A stretch of 25,767 nt of DNA from a virus: the IMG/VR virus record IMGVR_UViG_3300001846_000125, positions 1-25,767 of that record; one strand, given 5' to 3'. The notes beneath the pieces were generated by a model. That model worked only from the letters and a program-made list of their open reading frames with translations. It was not told the DNA's origin and ran no database searches. The position numbers and the translations under genes are program-made. Below, piece after piece: positions 248 to 21,811 of this stretch; within the stretch, counting starts at the first letter, position 1, and the number at the start of each line of letters is the position of its first letter.

Positions 248-1722
248 AGATCCCGTTTTTTAGCCGCAAAGAGAAGAAGGTGCAGAAGCGTTACTATCAG
301 GGCGCTCAAGTAGGCCGTCTCCTTGGCGGGATGTTTGGTTCTTCTGCGTCAGCAGATTCAACAATTAAGCCATCGCTAGGGAAACTGCGCGATAGAGCAC
401 GAGACTTAGAAAGAAACAATGAATATGTAGCTAGGGCGCTTGATCTAATGGAGATAGGCGTTGTCGGAGACAGAGGTTTTAATCTTCAGGTCAAAGGGGT
501 AAACCTAGACAATAGGCTTGATGTCCCAGCAAACGACTTAATTGAACGTAGATGGAAGCAGTGGGGCAAATACTCGACGACAGACGGATGCATGTCATTT
601 CGTGATCTCTGTGCGATGGCTATACGTGTTCTCAAGCGAGATGGCGAGTTCTTTGCACAGGTAGTTAAGAACTCAGCATATCAGGATGGGTTAGCCATTC
701 ACCCAATAGAAGCTGACCGTGTTGATGTTGATAAAAATGAGCTTATGCCTAGCGGAAGACGTATTCGAATGGGCGTTGAGCTTGATGAGTTCGAGCGTCC
801 AGTCGCTTACTGGGTTCTAAATTATCATCCTGGCGATTATGACTTCATGCAAAACAGGCCAGAGAAGAAGCACACTAGAATTCCTGCCGAAAACATTATC
901 CACGTATTCAAGAAAAAGAGAGCCGGACAGACTAGGGGTGAATCAGCTTTCGCTCCTGCAATCTTTGCTTTGAAGATGCTTGATGGATATAGGGATGCTG
1001 AGATTACAGCAGCTAGGGCAGCGGCCGCTAAGTTTGGTGTTTTGGTGTCTCCGGGAGGAGATGGTATAGCTGATTCTTATGATGGAGATATCCCAGAGCT
1101 AAATTATGAGGCAGGGACGATTCAGTCTTTGCCCCAAGGTTATGACCTGAAGATGATTGACCCAACGCACCCAACAAGTGCGTTCTCTGATTTCAATAAA
1201 GCTGTTTTGCGCGGCATCGCTTCTGGCTTAGGTCTTTCTTATGAGTCACTAAGTAACGATCTTGAGGGCACTTCTTACAGCTCTATCAGGCAGGGAGCTT
1301 TGTTAGAGAGAGATCAATTCAAATCTGACCAACAGTTCCTTATTGACCACTTCGTGGACAAGGTATTTAGAGCTTGGCTAAAGTGGAACATGGACACAAA
1401 TTCATTGGCATTGAACGGGTTTTCTATTGGCCCAGATAAGTACAATAAGTTTGCTGATGCAGCGCAGTGGAGAGGAAGGGGCTTCCAATGGGTAGATCCA
1501 TTGAAGGAAATGAACGCAGCCGTTGTTGGATTACAGAACGGCATACTGTCAATGCAAGATGTAGCTAATCATTATGGTAGAGATGTCGAAGAAACTTTCG
1601 CTCAAATCGAGCGAGATAAAGAAACCGCTACGCAATATAACATCCAAACATCGTTTGAACCGTTTGGCGCTCCGAAAGCTCCAGTTCAGCAAATCAACTT
1701 ATCCGACGAAGAGGAAGGCTGA
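244..1722 (+). CDS. Portal protein, lambda gpB type
   Basis: The 492-residue product matches the lambda-type portal family (Phage_portal_2), whose members are about 500 residues. The N-terminus is basic and carries the family 'R.RARDLERNNEYVARALD' stretch (about residues 50-67), followed by 'VVGDRGFNLQ'. Central parts include 'DGEFF' and 'RIPAENIIHVF', then 'GESAFAPAI' and the 'EGTSYSSIRQG' motif near residue 343. Portals form the dodecameric ring at one capsid vertex, through which DNA is packaged and to which the tail connects. The start overlaps the previous stop (ATGA). The stop overlaps the next start by one base, consistent with one structural transcript. Confidence 0.95.
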   Translation: MKIPFFSRKEKKVQKRYYQGAQVGRLLGGMFGSSASADSTIKPSLGKLRDRARDLERNNEYVARALDLMEIGVVGDRGFNLQVKGVNLDNRLDVPANDLIERRWKQWGKYSTTDGCMSFRDLCAMAIRVLKRDGEFFAQVVKNSAYQDGLAIHPIEADRVDVDKNELMPSGRRIRMGVELDEFERPVAYWVLNYHPGDYDFMQNRPEKKHTRIPAENIIHVFKKKRAGQTRGESAFAPAIFALKMLDGYRDAEITAARAAAAKFGVLVSPGGDGIADSYDGDIPELNYEAGTIQSLPQGYDLKMIDPTHPTSAFSDFNKAVLRGIASGLGLSYESLSNDLEGTSYSSIRQGALLERDQFKSDQQFLIDHFVDKVFRAWLKWNMDTNSLALNGFSIGPDKYNKFADAAQWRGRGFQWVDPLKEMNAAVVGLQNGILSMQDVANHYGRDVEETFAQIERDKETATQYNIQTSFEPFGAPKAPVQQINLSDEEEG

Positions 1723-3932
1723 TGAGTTACAAACCTACCGATGGGATGAAGTCAGAAGCGCAGAAGGGTCTTGACTGGAGAAAGGAGCATGGCAGGGGCG
1801 GAACAGAAGTTGGCATAGCACGTGCTAGGGACATTACTAACGGCAAAAACCTTAGTAATGATACAATCAAGCGCATGTACTCATTCTTCAGCCGTCATGA
1901 AGTTGACAAGAAGGCAGAAGGATTCCGCCCAGGAGAGGATGGTTATCCATCAAACGGGCGAATAGCTTGGGCCTTATGGGGCGGTGATGCAGGATTTAGT
2001 TGGAGTAAAAAGATTATGAACCAGTTAGATGATCGTAGTGTAGAAGAGGAAGGCATCGAAGCTTTAGACTATGAAGCTGAAGCTGAAGTGGATGTTTCTG
2101 AAGTTGCTGAAAGCGTTGATTCTGAAGAAGAAGTTATCGTAGACCTAGATGAAGAGTCTAGGGACGCTTCATTGGTTGATATCGTACATCGAGCAATAGA
2201 AGTCTCCGGTGACGACATCATCAATGAGGAGGAGCGCCGAGTACGCATCGTAATGTCAACAGAGAATCCTGTTGCTCGCGGCTACGGCAAAGAAGTTTTA
2301 GACCACCAGGCTGAGTCCATTGATATGTCATGGATTGCAACTGGTCGAGCGCCGCTGTTGTTAGACCATGATATGGCACAACAGATCGGTGTAATTGAAT
2401 CCGTGGAACTTGATTCAGAGGAGCGCAAGGTCCGCGCTTCAGTTCGCTTTGGTCGAGGCGAACTAGCTGAAGAGATCTTCCAGGATGTGAAGGACGGCAT
2501 TCGGCAGAACATTTCTGTTGGTTATGCAGTAAACAAGATGGAGCGTGAAGGCAAGGACACCTATCGCGTGAAATCCTGGCGTCCTATGGAAGCATCTGTA
2601 GTTTCTATCCCTGCCGACAGTCAATCGCGTGTGGGTCGAAGTGCTGACGCTCCTACTGAACCCGTAATAGAAACTTCTGAAATTAAGGAGACTGTAATGT
2701 CTGAAGAAGTAAATGTAGAGGCAGTAGCGGCTGACGCAGCACGTTCTGCCCAAAAAGAGGCAGCTCAAATCTTTGAGCTAGGCGCTCGCCACGGGATGAC
2801 TGAGAAGGCTGCTGAAGCCGTTCGCTCCGGTCAATCACTGGCTGAGTTCCGTGGTGTTGTGTTGGATTCTATCGGTGACAAGCCACTTGTTACTGAAGAT
2901 ATCGGCATGACTAACAGAGAAGTTAAGCGTTTCAGCTTGACACGTGCTATTCGCGCTTTGGCTAACCCTTCTGACCGCAAGGCTCAAGAAGAAGCGGCAT
3001 TTGAGTTCGAAGCTTCACGTGCCGCCGCTGATGCTTACGGTGTAACTGCACAAGGTATCATGATTCCTGCTGACGTTCTTCGTCAATGGGCTCAACGTGA
3101 CCTGAACACATCAGACGACGATTCACTTGTACCTGAAGACTTCCGCGCTGGCGACTTCATTGATGTCCTTCGCAATCAATCTTCAGTCATGCAAGCTGGT
3201 GCGCGTATGCTGCAAGGTCTGTCTGGAAACGTGGCTATTCCTAAGAAGGCAACTGCTGCCGCTGCGGGATGGATTGCAACAGAAGGCGCTGCCGCTGCTG
3301 AATCTGAAGCTACTTTCTCACAGGTGACAATGACACCTAAGACAGTCGGTGCGTTCACTGAAGTTACTCGACAGATGATGATTCAAGCATCACCAGACAT
3401 CGAGGCGCTTATTCGTGACGACCTAACTCAAGCTATTGCTTTGGCAATCGACTTGGGTGCGTTGCAGGGATCAGGAGCATCTGGTCAGCCAACAGGTATC
3501 AAGAATACTACTGGCATCAACGCTCCAACTAACTTTGCAGCCGCGAACCCAACATTCGCAGAAGTTGTTGCAATGGAAACTGCTGTAGCAGAAGACAACG
3601 CACTTCTTGGCAACTTGGCATACATTCTCCCTGCGAGCATGTACGGCGCGTTAAAGACTACTGAGAAGGCAACTAACACTGCCCAATTCGTAGTTGAGCC
3701 AGGTGGAACGATTAACGGTTACCGTGCAATCGTATCTAACCAAGTAACATCAGGTGATTTGTACTTCGGTAACTTCAATGACCTGTTAGTCGGTATGTAC
3801 GGCGGGCTCGACATTCTTGTCGATCCTTACACTTCATCTGCTTCTGGCACAGTGCGTGTACGCGCTCTACAGTCAGTGGATGTAGCTGTACGCCACGCTG
3901 TATCCTTCGCTGTCAACAATGACGGTGCATAA
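1722..3932 (+). CDS. Fused prohead protease and HK97-fold major capsid protein
   Basis: This 736-residue polyprotein has three parts. Residues 1-100 are a domain recurrent at the N-terminus of prohead proteases, with motifs 'GRGGTEVGIARARD', 'FFSRHEVDKK' and 'GRIAWALWGGDAG'. An acidic linker (about 102-150) follows. Residues about 170-310 are an HK97-family (S78) prohead protease; His216 in 'LLLDHD' and Ser265 in 'NISVGY' are the likely catalytic His and Ser. From about residue 326 the protein is a phage HK97-fold capsid protein with a delta/scaffold-like helical segment and core motifs such as 'GIMIPADVL', 'EVTRQMM' and 'GSGASGQPTGI'. No stop separates the parts. The protease would mature the prohead and free the capsid part. 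An in-frame internal start (separate entry) probably supplies extra capsid subunits. Confidence 0.93.
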   Translation: MSYKPTDGMKSEAQKGLDWRKEHGRGGTEVGIARARDITNGKNLSNDTIKRMYSFFSRHEVDKKAEGFRPGEDGYPSNGRIAWALWGGDAGFSWSKKIMNQLDDRSVEEEGIEALDYEAEAEVDVSEVAESVDSEEEVIVDLDEESRDASLVDIVHRAIEVSGDDIINEEERRVRIVMSTENPVARGYGKEVLDHQAESIDMSWIATGRAPLLLDHDMAQQIGVIESVELDSEERKVRASVRFGRGELAEEIFQDVKDGIRQNISVGYAVNKMEREGKDTYRVKSWRPMEASVVSIPADSQSRVGRSADAPTEPVIETSEIKETVMSEEVNVEAVAADAARSAQKEAAQIFELGARHGMTEKAAEAVRSGQSLAEFRGVVLDSIGDKPLVTEDIGMTNREVKRFSLTRAIRALANPSDRKAQEEAAFEFEASRAAADAYGVTAQGIMIPADVLRQWAQRDLNTSDDDSLVPEDFRAGDFIDVLRNQSSVMQAGARMLQGLSGNVAIPKKATAAAAGWIATEGAAAAESEATFSQVTMTPKTVGAFTEVTRQMMIQASPDIEALIRDDLTQAIALAIDLGALQGSGASGQPTGIKNTTGINAPTNFAAANPTFAEVVAMETAVAEDNALLGNLAYILPASMYGALKTTEKATNTAQFVVEPGGTINGYRAIVSNQVTSGDLYFGNFNDLLVGMYGGLDILVDPYTSSASGTVRVRALQSVDVAVRHAVSFAVNNDGA
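2685..2699 (+). promoter_or_regulatory. Internal ribosome binding site and start for capsid protein
   Basis: AAGGAG at 2685-2690, then six bases, then ATG at 2697, in frame with the surrounding fusion gene. It is a stronger site than the one in front of the fusion start at 1722. Confidence 0.7.
2697..3932 (+). CDS. Predicted free major capsid protein from an internal start
   Basis: Codon 326 of the fusion is ATG (2697-2699) and has AAGGAG at 2685-2690, six bases upstream, a near-ideal ribosome binding site inside coding sequence. Initiation here would give a 411-residue protein beginning MSEEVNVEAV, close to the usual length of an HK97-type major capsid precursor with its N-terminal delta domain. 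The boundary falls after the protease domain, in the flexible acidic linker. Inference: many copies of the capsid protein are made from the internal start and few copies of the fusion from 1722, which would fit capsid stoichiometry. Nested in-frame starts are known in lambda (C and Nu3). No experiment supports it here. Confidence 0.7.
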   Translation: MSEEVNVEAVAADAARSAQKEAAQIFELGARHGMTEKAAEAVRSGQSLAEFRGVVLDSIGDKPLVTEDIGMTNREVKRFSLTRAIRALANPSDRKAQEEAAFEFEASRAAADAYGVTAQGIMIPADVLRQWAQRDLNTSDDDSLVPEDFRAGDFIDVLRNQSSVMQAGARMLQGLSGNVAIPKKATAAAAGWIATEGAAAAESEATFSQVTMTPKTVGAFTEVTRQMMIQASPDIEALIRDDLTQAIALAIDLGALQGSGASGQPTGIKNTTGINAPTNFAAANPTFAEVVAMETAVAEDNALLGNLAYILPASMYGALKTTEKATNTAQFVVEPGGTINGYRAIVSNQVTSGDLYFGNFNDLLVGMYGGLDILVDPYTSSASGTVRVRALQSVDVAVRHAVSFAVNNDGA

Positions 3933-5061: not shown

Positions 5062-5451
5062 ATGGCTACAACGACCGCCGCTAATGGCGTAATTAAAGTG
5101 GGTTCAGCAGATGTCGCTGAGGTTACTGGATACTCTATTGAGTACCAAAGTGACACGGTAGAGGATACTGTGATTGGTGATACTGCGCGTACCTACAAAA
5201 GCACCCTAAAGAGCTTTACTGCTTCTTTGGATGTGCAGTGGGACCCAGCTACAGCTTCTAATCAGGATGACCTAGTTGTCGGAACTGAGATCACCTTCCA
5301 AATCTACCCAGAAGGCGAAACTGCTGGAGATACCTACTACACTGGTTCTGGTATTGTCACTGGACGTTCTGTAACATCATCAGTTGGAGAGATGGTTACT
5401 GCTAGCTTCACTGTTCAAGGTAGCGGCGACTTAACTACAACAACTGTATAA
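5062..5451 (+). CDS. Major tail tube protein
   Basis: The 129-residue product is Thr/Ser/Gly-rich and predicted all-beta ('YSIEYQSDTVEDTVIGDTAR', 'YKSTLKSFTASLDVQWD', 'EMVTASFTVQGSG'). It resembles tail tube proteins that stack as hexameric rings to form a siphovirus tail. It has the strong ribosome binding site AAGGAGG at 5048-5054, fitting a highly expressed structural protein. It lies directly between the tail terminator and tail-assembly chaperone genes, the standard place for the tube gene. Confidence 0.85.
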   Translation: MATTTAANGVIKVGSADVAEVTGYSIEYQSDTVEDTVIGDTARTYKSTLKSFTASLDVQWDPATASNQDDLVVGTEITFQIYPEGETAGDTYYTGSGIVTGRSVTSSVGEMVTASFTVQGSGDLTTTTV

Positions 5452-5459
5452 GGTGACTT

Positions 5460-5807
5460 ATGAGTCTACTTGATAAGCTAAAGGAAGCTATCGAGTTTGA
5501 CAGCATAGAAGTTGAAGTTCCTGCCTGGGGAGAGACGTTCTTTGTCACTCCCCTTTCAGTGCAGGAGCTTTCTAAGCTGCAAAAGCGATTCCCAGACTTC
5601 CTGATAAATAGTTCAGTGGAAGCCGCTGTTGAACTAATCATGATGAAAGCAATGACTAAGGACGGTGAGAAAGCATTCTCGCTTGAACACAAGCCTTTGC
5701 TACTGCGTCAACGCGCTACGATTATCATGCAATTTTACGGCGTACTTGTTGGGTCTGTTTTACAAGAGGACCCGGAAAAAAACTTAGAAACGACTCGCTC
5801 AGACTGA
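5460..5807 (+). CDS. Tail assembly chaperone, gpG-like (zero-frame product)
   Basis: The 115-residue zero-frame product begins 'MSLLDKLKEAIEFDSIEVEV' and has 'WGETFFVTPLSVQELSKLQK', typical of phage tail assembly chaperones that coat the tape measure protein during tail assembly. The gene lies between tube and tape measure genes. Near its 3' end is a -1 slippery heptamer (separate entry) that lets some ribosomes continue into the T frame. The zero-frame product ends with TGA at 5805, inside the loop of the predicted frameshift-stimulating hairpin. Confidence 0.88.
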   Translation: MSLLDKLKEAIEFDSIEVEVPAWGETFFVTPLSVQELSKLQKRFPDFLINSSVEAAVELIMMKAMTKDGEKAFSLEHKPLLLRQRATIIMQFYGVLVGSVLQEDPEKNLETTRSD

Positions 5808-5959
5808 GTTTATTTAGGCTAGCGAGTCATCTAGGCAAGACTGTATCTGAGATTGAGCGTATTCCATACTCAGAACTGTTAGAATGGATTGCATATTTTA
5901 GGATAGAAGGACAGGAAGATGGCAGCGGCAACCCAGAAGATCGTCATACACGCAGATGA
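5460..5959 (+). CDS. Tail assembly chaperone GT fusion via -1 frameshift
   Basis: This joined product reads 5460-5783 in frame 0 and then continues from 5783 in the -1 frame to TGA at 5957-5959, about 166 residues in all. The -1 extension adds 58 residues including 'RLASHLGKTVSEIERIPYSE' followed by 'LLEWIAYFRIE'. This is the classic T-domain pattern (A..lG.tv.ei....eL..W.ayf.iE) of lambda-like GT chaperones. The T part has no start or ribosome binding site of its own. The fusion overlaps the tape measure start by 41 bases. Lambda GT is known to be needed at a low ratio to G; the same is inferred here. Confidence 0.88.
5777..5783 (+). other. Programmed -1 ribosomal frameshift site A AAA AAC
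   Basis: In the gpG-like reading frame the codons are GAA AAA AAC, giving an in-phase X XXY YYZ heptamer A AAA AAC. Slipping by -1 here opens the T-domain frame. The neighbouring 0-frame stop follows 21 bases later. Confidence 0.9.
5792..5828 (+). other. Frameshift-stimulating hairpin
   Basis: GACTCGCT (5792-5799) is the exact reverse complement of AGCGAGTC (5821-5828), giving an 8-bp stem with a 21-base loop. It begins 8 bases after the slippery heptamer, the usual spacing for a stimulatory structure. The loop contains the 0-frame TGA. Confidence 0.8.
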
Positions 5960-7757
5960 TAGGACGGGTCCTGGTACTAACTCCGCTGTAAGAAACGCAA
6001 AAAAACTAGATCATCAGTTAAATAAAACTAACCAAGCTATGCGCGGAATGACCCGCCAGGGTCGAGCGCAGATGGCACAACTTGGTCATCAGATCCAAGA
6101 CGTTTCAGTTCAGATGCAAATGGGCATGAACCCATTAATGATTCTGGGTCAACAGGGTTCTCAGATAGCTTCGGTTTTTGGCACTAAAGGGCCAGTTATT
6201 GGTTCGATTATCGCTGTCGGCGCTGCACTTGCTTATTCATTCATCCCTTCATTAAATGAAACAAACGAGACTCTTGACAATCTATTAAAGAAGGCAGAGA
6301 GACTCGACACTAGCTTAAAAAAATTAATGCCTAGGGAGTATGAGAAGAGATTAGAAAAAGCCGAGCAAGCCGTAAGTGATGCAGCTAAGGCACATGGCGA
6401 TGCTGTAAACAAGCTGTTTGACTTAGAGGAGGCACAAACAAGAGCTGGGTATGCCGCTTTGGATATGCGCGAAAATGTTCTTTCTCAGGGGGCCGCACAA
6501 GAAAACTCTAGGTCCTTGGTCCAAGCGTTGTCTAGGGATATATCAGATCAGCAGGATAGGGTAGAAAAAGCAAAAGTAGCCTTGCTTTCTGCGAAGAAAG
6601 CTCTTGAAGAGTTCAAGAAAGAAACAGGGACTACTTCAAAAGAATTATCTGAAAGAGCTGAAGGTCTTGAAGCACTTATAGCTGCTGAAGAGGCTAGAAC
6701 AGCTATGCTGATGGACGCTCTGCCAGCAGAGAAAAAGTTTTTAAATGCTGTAAAAGAGATGAGGGCGGTTCTTGGAGATCCGAAGACCCCGCAAGAAGTC
6801 GAAGCCTATCGAGTACAAATAGAGAAACTGGCGCTTAAATATTTTGATGCTTCAGCGCAAGCTAGGAAGCTAGCTGCTGAACAGGCGCAGCAAGCCAAGG
6901 CTCAACGTGAGGCCGAACGTAAATTCAATGAGATTCTTCAAAATAGGCAGGAGCTTCAGGATATTCTTGACAAGAGGGCTCAAGCTTTAAGTCAGAAGAG
7001 GATTAGACTTCTTGATGAGGCAGTAGATCGCAATCAAAAATTGTATCAGCACTCTCTGATGTTGAAAAAAGTTCTTGTTGGACCGGATGGAATATGGCAG
7101 ACACACGAGTTACAAGCGTTTGCCTTCCACATGGAAAAACTTACAAATGAACTCTTCCCGGCTGTTGATAACAAAGTTAAGAGTTCGGCTGAGAAGATAG
7201 CCAAATTCAAGAATAATACAAAAGAGCTAACTGACTCCTTAATTGATGCTGGAGAGAATGGCTTAACCTCACTTGAGAATGGTTTGGTTGGCTTGAGCAT
7301 GGGCACAAAGACAGCGGCTCAAGCGTTCAAAGATATGGCTAGATCAATCATTGAGGACTTGATTAGAATCAACATCCAACAAAGTGTTACTCCTCTTTTC
7401 AGAGATATCTTTAGTTCAGCTATCGGCTTTGGTACAGGGACATCAAGTGCAGATATTGACGCTCAGTCGTCGGCGGCTGCTGATGCAGGGATTCCTAGGC
7501 GAGCTTTGGGCGGGCCAGTATCAGCCAGACAACCTTATATGGTTGGCGAAAGAGGGCCTGAGTTATTTATCCCTAGCGGGAACGGGAAGATAGTCTCAAA
7601 CCACAATTTAGGTGGCGGTGATACTGTTAATATATCGCTAAATATTTCCACAGGTGTTCCAGAAACAGTGAGAACTGAGCTTCAGTCAATGCTCCCTCAA
7701 ATTCAAGAGGTTGCTAAAACTGCTGTATTTAACGCCAAAGCTAGAGGATATGCGTAA
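5919..7757 (+). CDS. Tail tape measure protein
   Basis: The 612-residue product carries the lambda-type tape measure N-terminal motif ('GHQIQDVSVQMQMGMNPLMI' then 'LGQQGSQIASVFG', residues 56-88). A hydrophobic segment follows at about 92-110, then long coiled-coil stretches to about residue 360, rich in Ala, Glu, Lys and Gln. The C-terminal part has 'LENGLVGLSMGTKTAAQAFK' and the 'GGPV...PYMVGERGPELFIP' signature around residues 530-555. The protein sets tail length and reaches into the host envelope at ejection. At 612 residues it is short for the family (lambda H is 853), implying a short siphovirus tail. The start is inside the GT frameshift product. Confidence 0.93.
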   Translation: MAAATQKIVIHADDRTGPGTNSAVRNAKKLDHQLNKTNQAMRGMTRQGRAQMAQLGHQIQDVSVQMQMGMNPLMILGQQGSQIASVFGTKGPVIGSIIAVGAALAYSFIPSLNETNETLDNLLKKAERLDTSLKKLMPREYEKRLEKAEQAVSDAAKAHGDAVNKLFDLEEAQTRAGYAALDMRENVLSQGAAQENSRSLVQALSRDISDQQDRVEKAKVALLSAKKALEEFKKETGTTSKELSERAEGLEALIAAEEARTAMLMDALPAEKKFLNAVKEMRAVLGDPKTPQEVEAYRVQIEKLALKYFDASAQARKLAAEQAQQAKAQREAERKFNEILQNRQELQDILDKRAQALSQKRIRLLDEAVDRNQKLYQHSLMLKKVLVGPDGIWQTHELQAFAFHMEKLTNELFPAVDNKVKSSAEKIAKFKNNTKELTDSLIDAGENGLTSLENGLVGLSMGTKTAAQAFKDMARSIIEDLIRINIQQSVTPLFRDIFSSAIGFGTGTSSADIDAQSSAAADAGIPRRALGGPVSARQPYMVGERGPELFIPSGNGKIVSNHNLGGGDTVNISLNISTGVPETVRTELQSMLPQIQEVAKTAVFNAKARGYA

Positions 7758-11452: not shown

Positions 11453-11791
11453 ATGGCCGAAGCACACAAATTAGTTCAGGGTGATACCGGCCCACAAGTC
11501 AAAGTCACGCTGACTCGATCAGAAACCGGCGATGCCATTGATCTGACTGAGGCTACAACATGCAAAATGCATTTCAGGAAGAAAAACAGTGATTCAGTGC
11601 TTTTCTCTTTATCTAATGCAAGCGATGTAACTAACCAGGGCAATGGCATTGCAATATTTGCATTCTCTGGGACACAACTAGACATTCCTCCTGGCGATTA
11701 TGAAGGCGAAGTAGAGATCGTATTCAATGATGGATCAAGAGAGACTGTTTACGAAACCATAGACTTTGTTGTACGCGCTGATTTCGCATGA
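11453..11791 (+). CDS. BppU N-terminal-domain-like tail protein
   Basis: The 112-residue product reads as one small beta-sandwich: 'LVQGDTGPQVKVTLTRSETG', 'IDLTEATTCKMHFRKKNSD', and 'PPGDYEGEVEIVFNDGSRET'. This matches the N-terminal domain of phage upper baseplate proteins (BppU_N), which attach receptor-binding parts to the tail tip. Here the domain stands alone, with no fibre region. AAAGGAG precedes the ATG. The stop overlaps the next start (ATGA), so it is probably co-translated with the repeat fibre and may anchor it. Confidence 0.65.
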   Translation: MAEAHKLVQGDTGPQVKVTLTRSETGDAIDLTEATTCKMHFRKKNSDSVLFSLSNASDVTNQGNGIAIFAFSGTQLDIPPGDYEGEVEIVFNDGSRETVYETIDFVVRADFA

Positions 11792-13128
11792 CTATAAAAC
11801 GGTCAATCACCTTTGCTCGATTATTATCGGCAATCAATTTTGGCCGAGCTAAATTTTCTGTTTTCTTTGATAGAGCCAAATCCTCTGTAATTGTATCAAG
11901 ACTTAAAGCATCGGCATCAGTTGCAAGACTGAAAGCAAGCTCGATACTTGGGTTCTTTATTCATTTGCTCCAGTTTGCAGACACACCTAGCGTATCTGAT
12001 TTGATTGCAAAGGTTTTTAACAAAACCACTTCTGATTCTGCAAACGTCAGTGATTCAGATAATAAAGACATTGGCAAAAGCCTGACCGATTATCGCCAAG
12101 TCAGAGAATCTCAAGAAAAATCTTTCGGGAAGGTTGTCACAGAACAATCAAGCGTTGATGAAAGCCATGCGGTTATTTTTGATAAGGTAGACGCTGATAG
12201 TGCTTCTGTTTCTGAGTCTCAGGCAGTATTAGCTGAAAAGAACAAGACAGACAACGCTTCTGCGTCAGATGCTCAAGTATATTCGGTCGGAAAGAATCAA
12301 TCAGACAATACATCTGTTTCAGATGAACATCTGCTGTCTGCTATAAAAAGAACGTCTGATCAGGCTGATTTTTCTGAGGCACACACTGCTGACATAACTA
12401 AGGCTGTATCTGATATAGCAACGGTCACTGACGACTTAGATGGTAGCGTCACGCCAGAAGATGATCATGATATAATTTTTACCAAGGTCAAATCGAATAC
12501 CGCATCAGCGACAGATGTATTTTCACGCACTGTTAATTACGTCAGAAACTTCACTGATACTCCATACTTTTTCGCGCAAGAATCATGGTCATATCTAGGG
12601 ATCGTATACTCACAACTTAGCGCGTTTGTTACTAAGCCGTTCAGCGATAATGCAGAAGCATCTGAGTCATTGAACTTTTCTGCAACAAAAGTAGTCACTG
12701 AAACGCCAAGCATTGCAGAGTCTTTGACTTCAAGTGTTATGAAATCTACGAGCGATTCTCTCGATGCATCAGAATCTATTTCCCTGCAATCGACAAAGCC
12801 ATTATCAGATCAATCAGACGTATCTGATAGCATTGACTCGATATATGTAATAAAAGGAATTGATGAGACTCCATCTCTGTCTGAGGCTATTGAGTTTTCA
12901 ATATCGGTAGTATTATCGGATAGTTCAGAAATCAGTGACAGCCCTGCATTTACAGTTTCGACAGTGCTGTCAAATAATGGCATAATTAGTGAAGCCGCAA
13001 GCTTGAGGCCGTTAAAGGTTGTTAGTGATTCGGCAGAATTTTCAACCAGTGGAGAGATTGTGAACCAGGGCTATTGTGACCTGACTTACTTCTCAGAGGA
13101 CTACGTAGGAACACGGAGAACAATTTAA
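11788..13128 (+). CDS. Repeat fibre protein with 18-residue units
   Basis: The 446-residue product is almost wholly repetitive. Residues 7-51 are five 9-residue units with core R-[LA]-K-x-S. Residues 61-427 are about 18 units, nearly all exactly 18 residues, with consensus K-x-x-[ST]-D-x-[AS]-x-[VA]-S-[ED]-S followed by six variable residues. Two longer insertions occur at about 187-214 and 233-264, the latter aromatic ('YFFAQESWSYLG'). The C-terminus ends 'GYCDLTYFSEDYVGTRRTI', a tail motif I associate with similar phage fibres. Regular beta-solenoid or trimeric fibre structure is inferred. It sits among adhesion genes, so a side fibre or spacer role is likely. Confidence 0.65.
   Translation: MTIKRSITFARLLSAINFGRAKFSVFFDRAKSSVIVSRLKASASVARLKASSILGFFIHLLQFADTPSVSDLIAKVFNKTTSDSANVSDSDNKDIGKSLTDYRQVRESQEKSFGKVVTEQSSVDESHAVIFDKVDADSASVSESQAVLAEKNKTDNASASDAQVYSVGKNQSDNTSVSDEHLLSAIKRTSDQADFSEAHTADITKAVSDIATVTDDLDGSVTPEDDHDIIFTKVKSNTASATDVFSRTVNYVRNFTDTPYFFAQESWSYLGIVYSQLSAFVTKPFSDNAEASESLNFSATKVVTETPSIAESLTSSVMKSTSDSLDASESISLQSTKPLSDQSDVSDSIDSIYVIKGIDETPSLSEAIEFSISVVLSDSSEISDSPAFTVSTVLSNNGIISEAASLRPLKVVSDSAEFSTSGEIVNQGYCDLTYFSEDYVGTRRTI
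11806..11940 (+). repeat. Five 9-residue coding repeats (27-nt period)
   Basis: Residues 7-51 of the repeat fibre align as five units: ITFARLLSA, INFGRAKFS, VFFDRAKSS, VIVSRLKAS and ASVARLKAS. Alternating hydrophobic residues with a central Arg and Lys give a strand-like pattern. Confidence 0.75.
11968..13068 (+). repeat. Tandem 18-residue coding repeats (54-nt period)
   Basis: About 18 tandem units read in frame, for example KVDADSASVSESQAVLAE, KNKTDNASASDAQVYSVG and KSTSDSLDASESISLQST. All but three are 18 residues long. The conservation is at protein level; the DNA copies have diverged. Confidence 0.85.
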
Positions 13129-21253: not shown

Positions 21254-21811
21254 ATGGAGAAAAGGAAATTTCCAGCGTCCCAAAGAGAGGCGCTAAGACA
21301 AGGTGTCACATATTACTTCAATGGCAAGCCATGTAAGCACGGGCATGTTGTCGAGCGATTCGCTTCGAACAAGAACTGTTGCGAATGCAGCCGAATACGC
21401 AACCGCAAACGAACTGAAGCAAAAGACTACTGGGTCGGCTACGGAGACGAGGCGTACAGAGATCGAAAGAGAGAGTACGCTAAATCGTACTATAGAAAGC
21501 ACAAACACAGACACAAAGAGGGTGTCAGGAAACGCAGAAGAATTGAAAAGTCGGCTAGCGTGGCAACAAAGAAAGGCGCTATTGAGCTACGAAGGATCAG
21601 GCTTAAAGCCCAGATGCTATCTATCGATACTGGCATAAAGCACGAAGTAGATCACATTATCCCATTGATACATAAAAAGATTTGCGGGCTCAACGTGCCA
21701 GCAAACGTGCAGATATTGACCAAGCAGAAAAATAGGGCAAAAGCCTCTAGGTTATGCACTAAAACGCAAGAGAGAGAACTTATGGAAATGCTGAAAAAAA
21801 AGCCCTCATAA
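21254..21811 (+). CDS. HNH endonuclease
   Basis: The 185-residue product is very basic. The N-terminal part has Cys/His groups ('CKHGH' near residue 27 and 'NCCECSR' near 41) typical of a zinc-binding lead domain in phage HNH proteins. The C-terminal catalytic core 'HEVDHIIPLIHKKICGLNVP' followed by 'ANVQILTKQKNRAK' provides the His-Asp-His-Asn-His/Lys arrangement of HNH nucleases. It lies at the end of the lysis operon, outside the core head-gene HNH position, so it may be a free-standing homing endonuclease. Its stop codon lies in the loop of the leftward terminator. Confidence 0.8.
   Translation: MEKRKFPASQREALRQGVTYYFNGKPCKHGHVVERFASNKNCCECSRIRNRKRTEAKDYWVGYGDEAYRDRKREYAKSYYRKHKHRHKEGVRKRRRIEKSASVATKKGAIELRRIRLKAQMLSIDTGIKHEVDHIIPLIHKKICGLNVPANVQILTKQKNRAKASRLCTKTQERELMEMLKKKPS

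Follow-up and report, generated by a model that had tools for sequence, protein, structure and literature searches.

We analysed a 25.8-kb virus record (the window, as we call this whole stretch of DNA) and found two overlapping frames between the genes of the major tail protein and the tape-measure protein, the second frame being -1 relative to the first. The genes and signals of this tail region lie on the plus strand. The gene directly upstream (5062-5451) was assigned to a major tail (tube) protein (PHROG 10528 major tail protein, E 1e-10). The first frame, G (5460-5807), is an ORF of 115 aa assigned to the zero-frame tail assembly chaperone. The second, T (5783-5959), comprises 58 codons and a TGA, has no start codon of its own and overlaps the start of the tape-measure gene, which follows directly at 5919-7757 (PF06791, E 6e-9; PF09718, E 5e-6; PHROG 1538, E 2.5e-31). 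No phage record matched the region at the nucleotide level. Elsewhere in the window we observed a 736-aa ORF (1722-3932) in which a head maturation protease and a major capsid protein are apparently fused (PHROG 617, 80 and 4523), and a 446-aa ORF of degenerate repeats (DSANVSD or SESL-like; 11788-13128) that lies between two tail- or appendage-like ORFs and had no Pfam match.

In its zero frame, G has the codons ...GAG GAC CCG GAA AAA AAC TTA GAA ACG ACT CGC TCA GAC TGA and holds the slippery heptamer A AAA AAC at 5777-5783 in X_XXY_YYZ phase, exactly where the original prediction had placed it within GAA AAA AAC. From 5783, the -1 frame translates as LRNDSLRLSLFRLASHLGKTVSEIERIPYSELLEWIAYF... 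and stays open for 58 codons until the TGA at 5957-5959; reading it back to the preceding stop, we found no ATG, GTG or TTG, in agreement with the predicted T frame devoid of a start. In total, 21 in-phase heptamers were present in the 24 ORFs of the window, and the one at 5777-5783 was the only one combined with a long -1 ORF and a nearby zero-frame stop. Another in-phase heptamer, A AAA AAG at 21796-21802, lies two codons before the stop of ORF 21254-21811; its -1 frame is open for 13 codons only, and it is possibly a chance occurrence.

The proposal that these are tail chaperone frames was supported by the protein comparisons. G matched PHROG 344 (tail assembly chaperone; E 9.7e-7), a family that was also matched by 22 of the 27 relatives in the G family alignment, while a Pfam match was absent for G of the window phage. 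Its AlphaFold model (mean pLDDT 83) had the HK97 tail assembly chaperone 2OB9 as best match among solved structures (Foldseek E 9.5e-4), and the two were superposed over 100 residues with Z 8.7 and rmsd 3.6. Direct sequence comparison of G with lambda G gave nothing reliable (hhalign probability 1.1%, 12 columns). In the relatives, the protein equivalent to G has as its last residue 108, the Asn encoded within the heptamer. The T frame matched PHROG 337 (tail protein; E 2.2e-8), and its similarity to lambda T was weak, both with PF06223 Phage_tail_T (16.9 bits, E 0.009, for a curated cutoff of 25.9) and by hhalign (P 0.01 over 29 columns). The T protein was 46-82% identical to those of the relatives, starting at the first codon after the heptamer.

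Using G and T as queries against viral contigs, both as single sequences and in aligned form, we recovered 93 distinct cassettes, each defined as a G-like frame followed by an A/G-type heptamer and a -1 T frame. A scan of genome contigs with the G alignment gave one weak match only. The heptamer was A AAA AAC in 81 cassettes, A AAA AAG in 6, G GGA AAC in 4, and A AAA AAA and A AAA AAT in 1 each, counts that are conditional on a search requiring an AAA/GGG-AAA-N heptamer. Among these cassettes, none breaks the heptamer without compensation: A AAA AAC was invariant in 14 out of 14 cassettes of the window clade, and the other valid heptamers (A AAA AAG, G GGA AAC) were confined to more distant relatives. 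In 14 out of the 93 cassettes, the -1 frame was closed by a stop immediately before the heptamer; where a zero-frame stop also follows just after it, the change of frame is possible only at the heptamer. Among 15 distant T-domain loci, L022, L024, L025 and L028 had no heptamer of the AAA/GGG type (L022 and L024 carry an in-phase CCCTTTC instead), so these distant relatives may shift at other sites.

The zero-frame stop was the next codon after the heptamer in 81 of the 93 cassettes and came one codon later in 8 more. In the window phage, and in an identical twin contig, a TAA has become TTA (5784-5786) at the place where nearly all relatives have TAA, TGA or TAG, and G runs on for 7 codons into the hairpin loop described below, to the TGA at 5805-5807. 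The earlier observation that the stem holds the zero-frame stop in its loop is therefore true of this DNA, but it does not extend to the relatives, which stop directly after the heptamer; judged from the cassettes, a stop inside the loop is peculiar to this phage. T begins with a Leu, for which 69 of 78 cassettes, themselves picked by stop position, use CTA; in the same G genes, CTA makes up 14% of the Leu codons. This preference fits with selection for the overlapping TAA. In the frameshift genes of SEA-PHAGES, the distance from slippery site to stop is 26 nt on average (PMC10885494). In the relatives, ribosomes that do not shift would terminate 8-9 nt short of the stem, without any need to cross it. 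In the window phage, they would pass through the 5' arm up to the TGA in the loop, so that the next ribosome, if close behind, may find the stem open, which we regard as a prediction.

Upstream of the heptamer, we identified a Shine-Dalgarno (SD)-like GAGGA (5766-5770, 6 nt before the heptamer), a candidate pausing or stimulatory element that the original prediction, right about the heptamer and the stem, had overlooked. In 72 out of 74 relatives, Glu is encoded by GAG at the codon that starts at 5766 (11 nt before the heptamer); at the remaining Glu columns of these genes, the fraction of GAG is 0-0.60. With GAG almost invariable at this Glu, GAGGA is kept at a fixed place, and we found it at the same offset in 54 of the 61 distinct upstream sequences. 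The spacing between SD and heptamer in dnaX is about 10 nt; the 6-nt spacing here is shorter, which makes the stimulatory direction of GAGGA uncertain, and we read it, with moderate confidence, as a putative pausing element. Upstream SD-like sequences are known stimulators of -1 frameshifting in bacteria, thought to act by pausing and tension (PMC4066793).

Downstream, after a spacer of 8 nt (5784-5791), the heptamer is followed by an 8-bp stem. Its 5' arm, GACTCGCT (5792-5799), pairs base for base with the 3' arm, AGCGAGTC (5821-5828), as had been claimed, and the stem was also present in the predicted RNA fold. That fold combines the stem with an upper extension by a second small helix and reaches -22.4 kcal/mol (z -2.2 versus dinucleotide shuffles). 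When we recoded the region keeping the T protein, the minimum free energy was matched in 0.2% of the draws (p = 0.002) and the perfect stem appeared in 0.014% (p = 1.4e-4), about once in 7,000 draws. The stem is more than a chance pairing.

No gaps were needed to align the cassettes that share the distance to the T motif, and the eight pairs then correspond to offsets 9-16 with 45-38 after the heptamer (the register-54 stem). All eight pairs were present in 14 out of 14 members of the window clade and in 28 out of 34 relatives with the LADR motif, and all the other cassettes had at most 6. Across 48 sequences, 93.2% of the cells paired, compared with at most 48.9% when the register was slid. 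In the same 48 sequences both sides had changed in 25 cells versus a shuffled mean of 9.1; since the sequences are related, the p-values for covariation, like those for the codons, overstate independence, and the slid-register and other-Glu-column controls are more reliable. Within the window clade alone every cell pairs. The alignment thus did reveal compensatory changes at a fixed register, the covariation that the original prediction had proposed looking for; for example, CCG/GCG has become TTG/GCA. Synonymous third positions on one arm were tied to second positions on the opposite one, as with Asp, where the choice of GAC or GAT largely follows a G or an A at the second place of the partner codon (Gly or Ser/Asp). 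The distance between stem and heptamer was constant at 7-8 nt. Fold statistics and the tree were based on 78 cassettes, limited to A AAA AAC/T with a zero-frame stop at +0 or +7. Compared with protein-preserving recodings, the mean folding z was -3.5 for the window clade (12 sequences), -4.1 for the LADR group and +0.05 for the LAEL/LAEH type. Comparison with the relatives thus shows selection maintaining the hairpin together with two signals next to it.

A sister clade keeps the heptamer and the stop and has no such stem. When the residues encoded by the stem were left out of tree building, the 35 stem-less cassettes (the outlier L023 apart) formed one supported clade. This tree was made by a quick method, contains some long branches (L023, L057, L139, L140 and L142) and tentatively suggests that the stem was lost once, or gained once depending on the root. 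As the stem is absent there while the rest of the cassette is present, it is not strictly required, and it is probably a booster that is not essential to the cassette. In the stem-less clade of the LAEL/LAEH type, we found no replacement structure, with mean z from -0.73 to +0.17 in the other folding windows. A short hairpin of another kind, CAGGT-TTA-ACCTG, was present in the LASH subset (4-36 window, z -3.2). In L106, L115, L117 and L119, which belong to the clade devoid of the register-54 stem, the fold was better than that of synonymous recodings (z -2 to -7) via a different helix, possibly a replacement stimulator. The stem-less clade includes the cultured roseophages CRP-406, CRP-811, CRP-823, CRP-831 and CRP-821 (L035-L039). 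In their five records, only G is annotated, in some cases as hypothetical, and the -1 T frame lying between it and the tape measure carries no annotation; the paper that describes these phages (PMC12629253) nowhere uses the word 'frameshift'.

The distribution of stem and stop could also be read differently, with GAGGA, A AAA AAC and an immediate stop as the conserved unit and the hairpin as an exchangeable booster that was lost once in the sister clade. The stop would then either take part in the slip, a ribosome awaiting termination sliding back with tRNAs in its P and E sites, or protect the stem, by keeping ribosomes that do not shift from melting it. We consider this arrangement unlikely; if it were true, the window phage, having no adjacent stop, would be a natural test of the role of the stop.

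The sister clade bears on another reading as well, in which the frameshift is real and the stem is a by-product of the T protein sequence or of mRNA stability, with no role in frameshifting. Both the existence of relatives with the same heptamer and stop and no stem, and the fact that the two arms encode conserved T residues, would be expected under it. However, recodings that keep the protein almost never form the stem (1.4e-4), changes at third positions go together with changes at second positions of the opposite arm, and the distance to the heptamer stays at 7-8 nt, which together make a by-product distinctly improbable.

Taken together, the frames, the heptamer, the covarying stem and the chaperone fold support the lambda-type programmed -1 frameshift with a stimulating stem that had been predicted, and the locus is very probably a lambda-type G/GT tail assembly chaperone cassette that uses it. 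SD-like element, heptamer and stem-loop would make up an IS911/dnaX-like set of stimulators. We infer the occurrence of frameshifting from sequence comparison, and likewise its efficiency and the roles of the stem, GAGGA and the stop. Most ribosomes would translate G and then stop. In a minority, with the AAA tRNA in the P site and the AAC tRNA in the A site of A AAA AAC, the two tRNAs would slip back by one base and pair anew, and these ribosomes would read on in the -1 frame, giving a GT product of 166 aa with the junction ...EDPEKN/LRNDSLRL. The stem 8 nt downstream would stall or pull on the ribosome, and the upstream GAGGA would probably add a pause; bacterial -1 frameshifting is known to be stimulated both by a structure located 5-8 nt downstream of the heptamer and by an SD upstream of it (PMC4066793). 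Counting against this reading, A AAA AAC is reported to perform poorly as a heptamer in E. coli (PMC4066793), T resembles lambda T only weakly, and G gave no sequence match to lambda G. As in lambda, G would be in excess and should bind the tape-measure protein in many copies, and the rarer GT should link the tape-measure protein to the tail-tube protein.

Slippage of RNA polymerase on the run of seven A could also produce the fusion, through mRNAs with one extra A (or two fewer) and no ribosomal frameshift involved. The run, GAAAAAAAC, is indeed 7 A long here and in most relatives. However, some relatives interrupt its context (GCA, GTA, CTA or ACA before AAA AAC), distant ones have in the same phase G GGA AAC, a poor substrate for slippage, the stem sits at ribosome distance and covaries, and the efficient bacterial case was shown with runs of 9 (PMC5009743), so that we regard polymerase slippage as very unlikely. 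Separate production of T by re-initiation or internal initiation after termination of G (translational coupling), for which the G stop is close to the beginning of the T frame and GAGGA could in principle serve as ribosome-binding site, is hardly credible given that the T frame has no ATG, GTG or TTG, that conservation of its protein sets in with the codon right after the heptamer, and that coupling needs neither an in-phase heptamer nor a stem in that register.

We compared the programmed frameshift proposed here with known systems. The order tail tube, G, T and tape measure is the same in lambda, where the -1 shift also occurs near the end of G and T lies in the -1 frame; lambda T aligned weakly with T of the window phage at LA..G and [E/D]..W positions, and no sequence similarity between the two G proteins was detectable. 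In lambda, the heptamer is G GGA AAG, the stop comes 5 codons later and there is no comparable hairpin, in contrast to A AAA AAC, stem and GAGGA here; the immediate stop of the relatives of this phage also differs from lambda. The gpG:gpGT ratio in lambda is about 30:1 (PMC5009743). HK97 2OB9 shares the predicted fold of G, with only 14-18% sequence identity. The CRP-822-type roseophages listed above (PMC12629253) have a homologous G (33-41% identity) and A AAA AAC TAA followed by a homologous -1 T frame; they have 3-5 of the 8 pairs of the register-54 stem, whereas the window phage has 8 out of 8. The Moraxella phage Mcat21 combines A AAA AAC, a zero-frame stop one codon later and a homologous T domain with a strong hairpin right after the heptamer (CCGACG/CGTCGG), which differs from the stem here in position and sequence and thus probably arose independently. 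In the Pelagibacter phage HTVC026P, A AAA AAC is likewise followed by a zero-frame stop at a distance of 0-1 codon, and there is no strong hairpin. Compared by heptamer, the g-t frameshift of the haloarchaeal virus HCTV-2 is reported to use the same A_AAA_AAC in an archaeal host (PMC5009743).

An upstream SD-like element, an A-rich heptamer and a downstream stem-loop are combined in IS911 and E. coli dnaX as they are here (PMC4066793), although the heptamer there is A AAA AAG, the SD spacing is shorter in our case, and genes and purpose differ. The principle is already known from the lambda G/GT frameshift, from A AAA AAC in a haloarchaeal G/T pair and from the stem-loops of IS911 and dnaX. 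With our results, the G/GT frameshift would also cover a lineage of marine phages, in which the five cultured CRP members are annotated without the T half. They also provide a comparative set of related genes, in which the same heptamer occurs with and without the stem and with and without the adjacent stop, and which could separate the contributions of stem, stop and SD-like element to the G:GT ratio with A AAA AAC.
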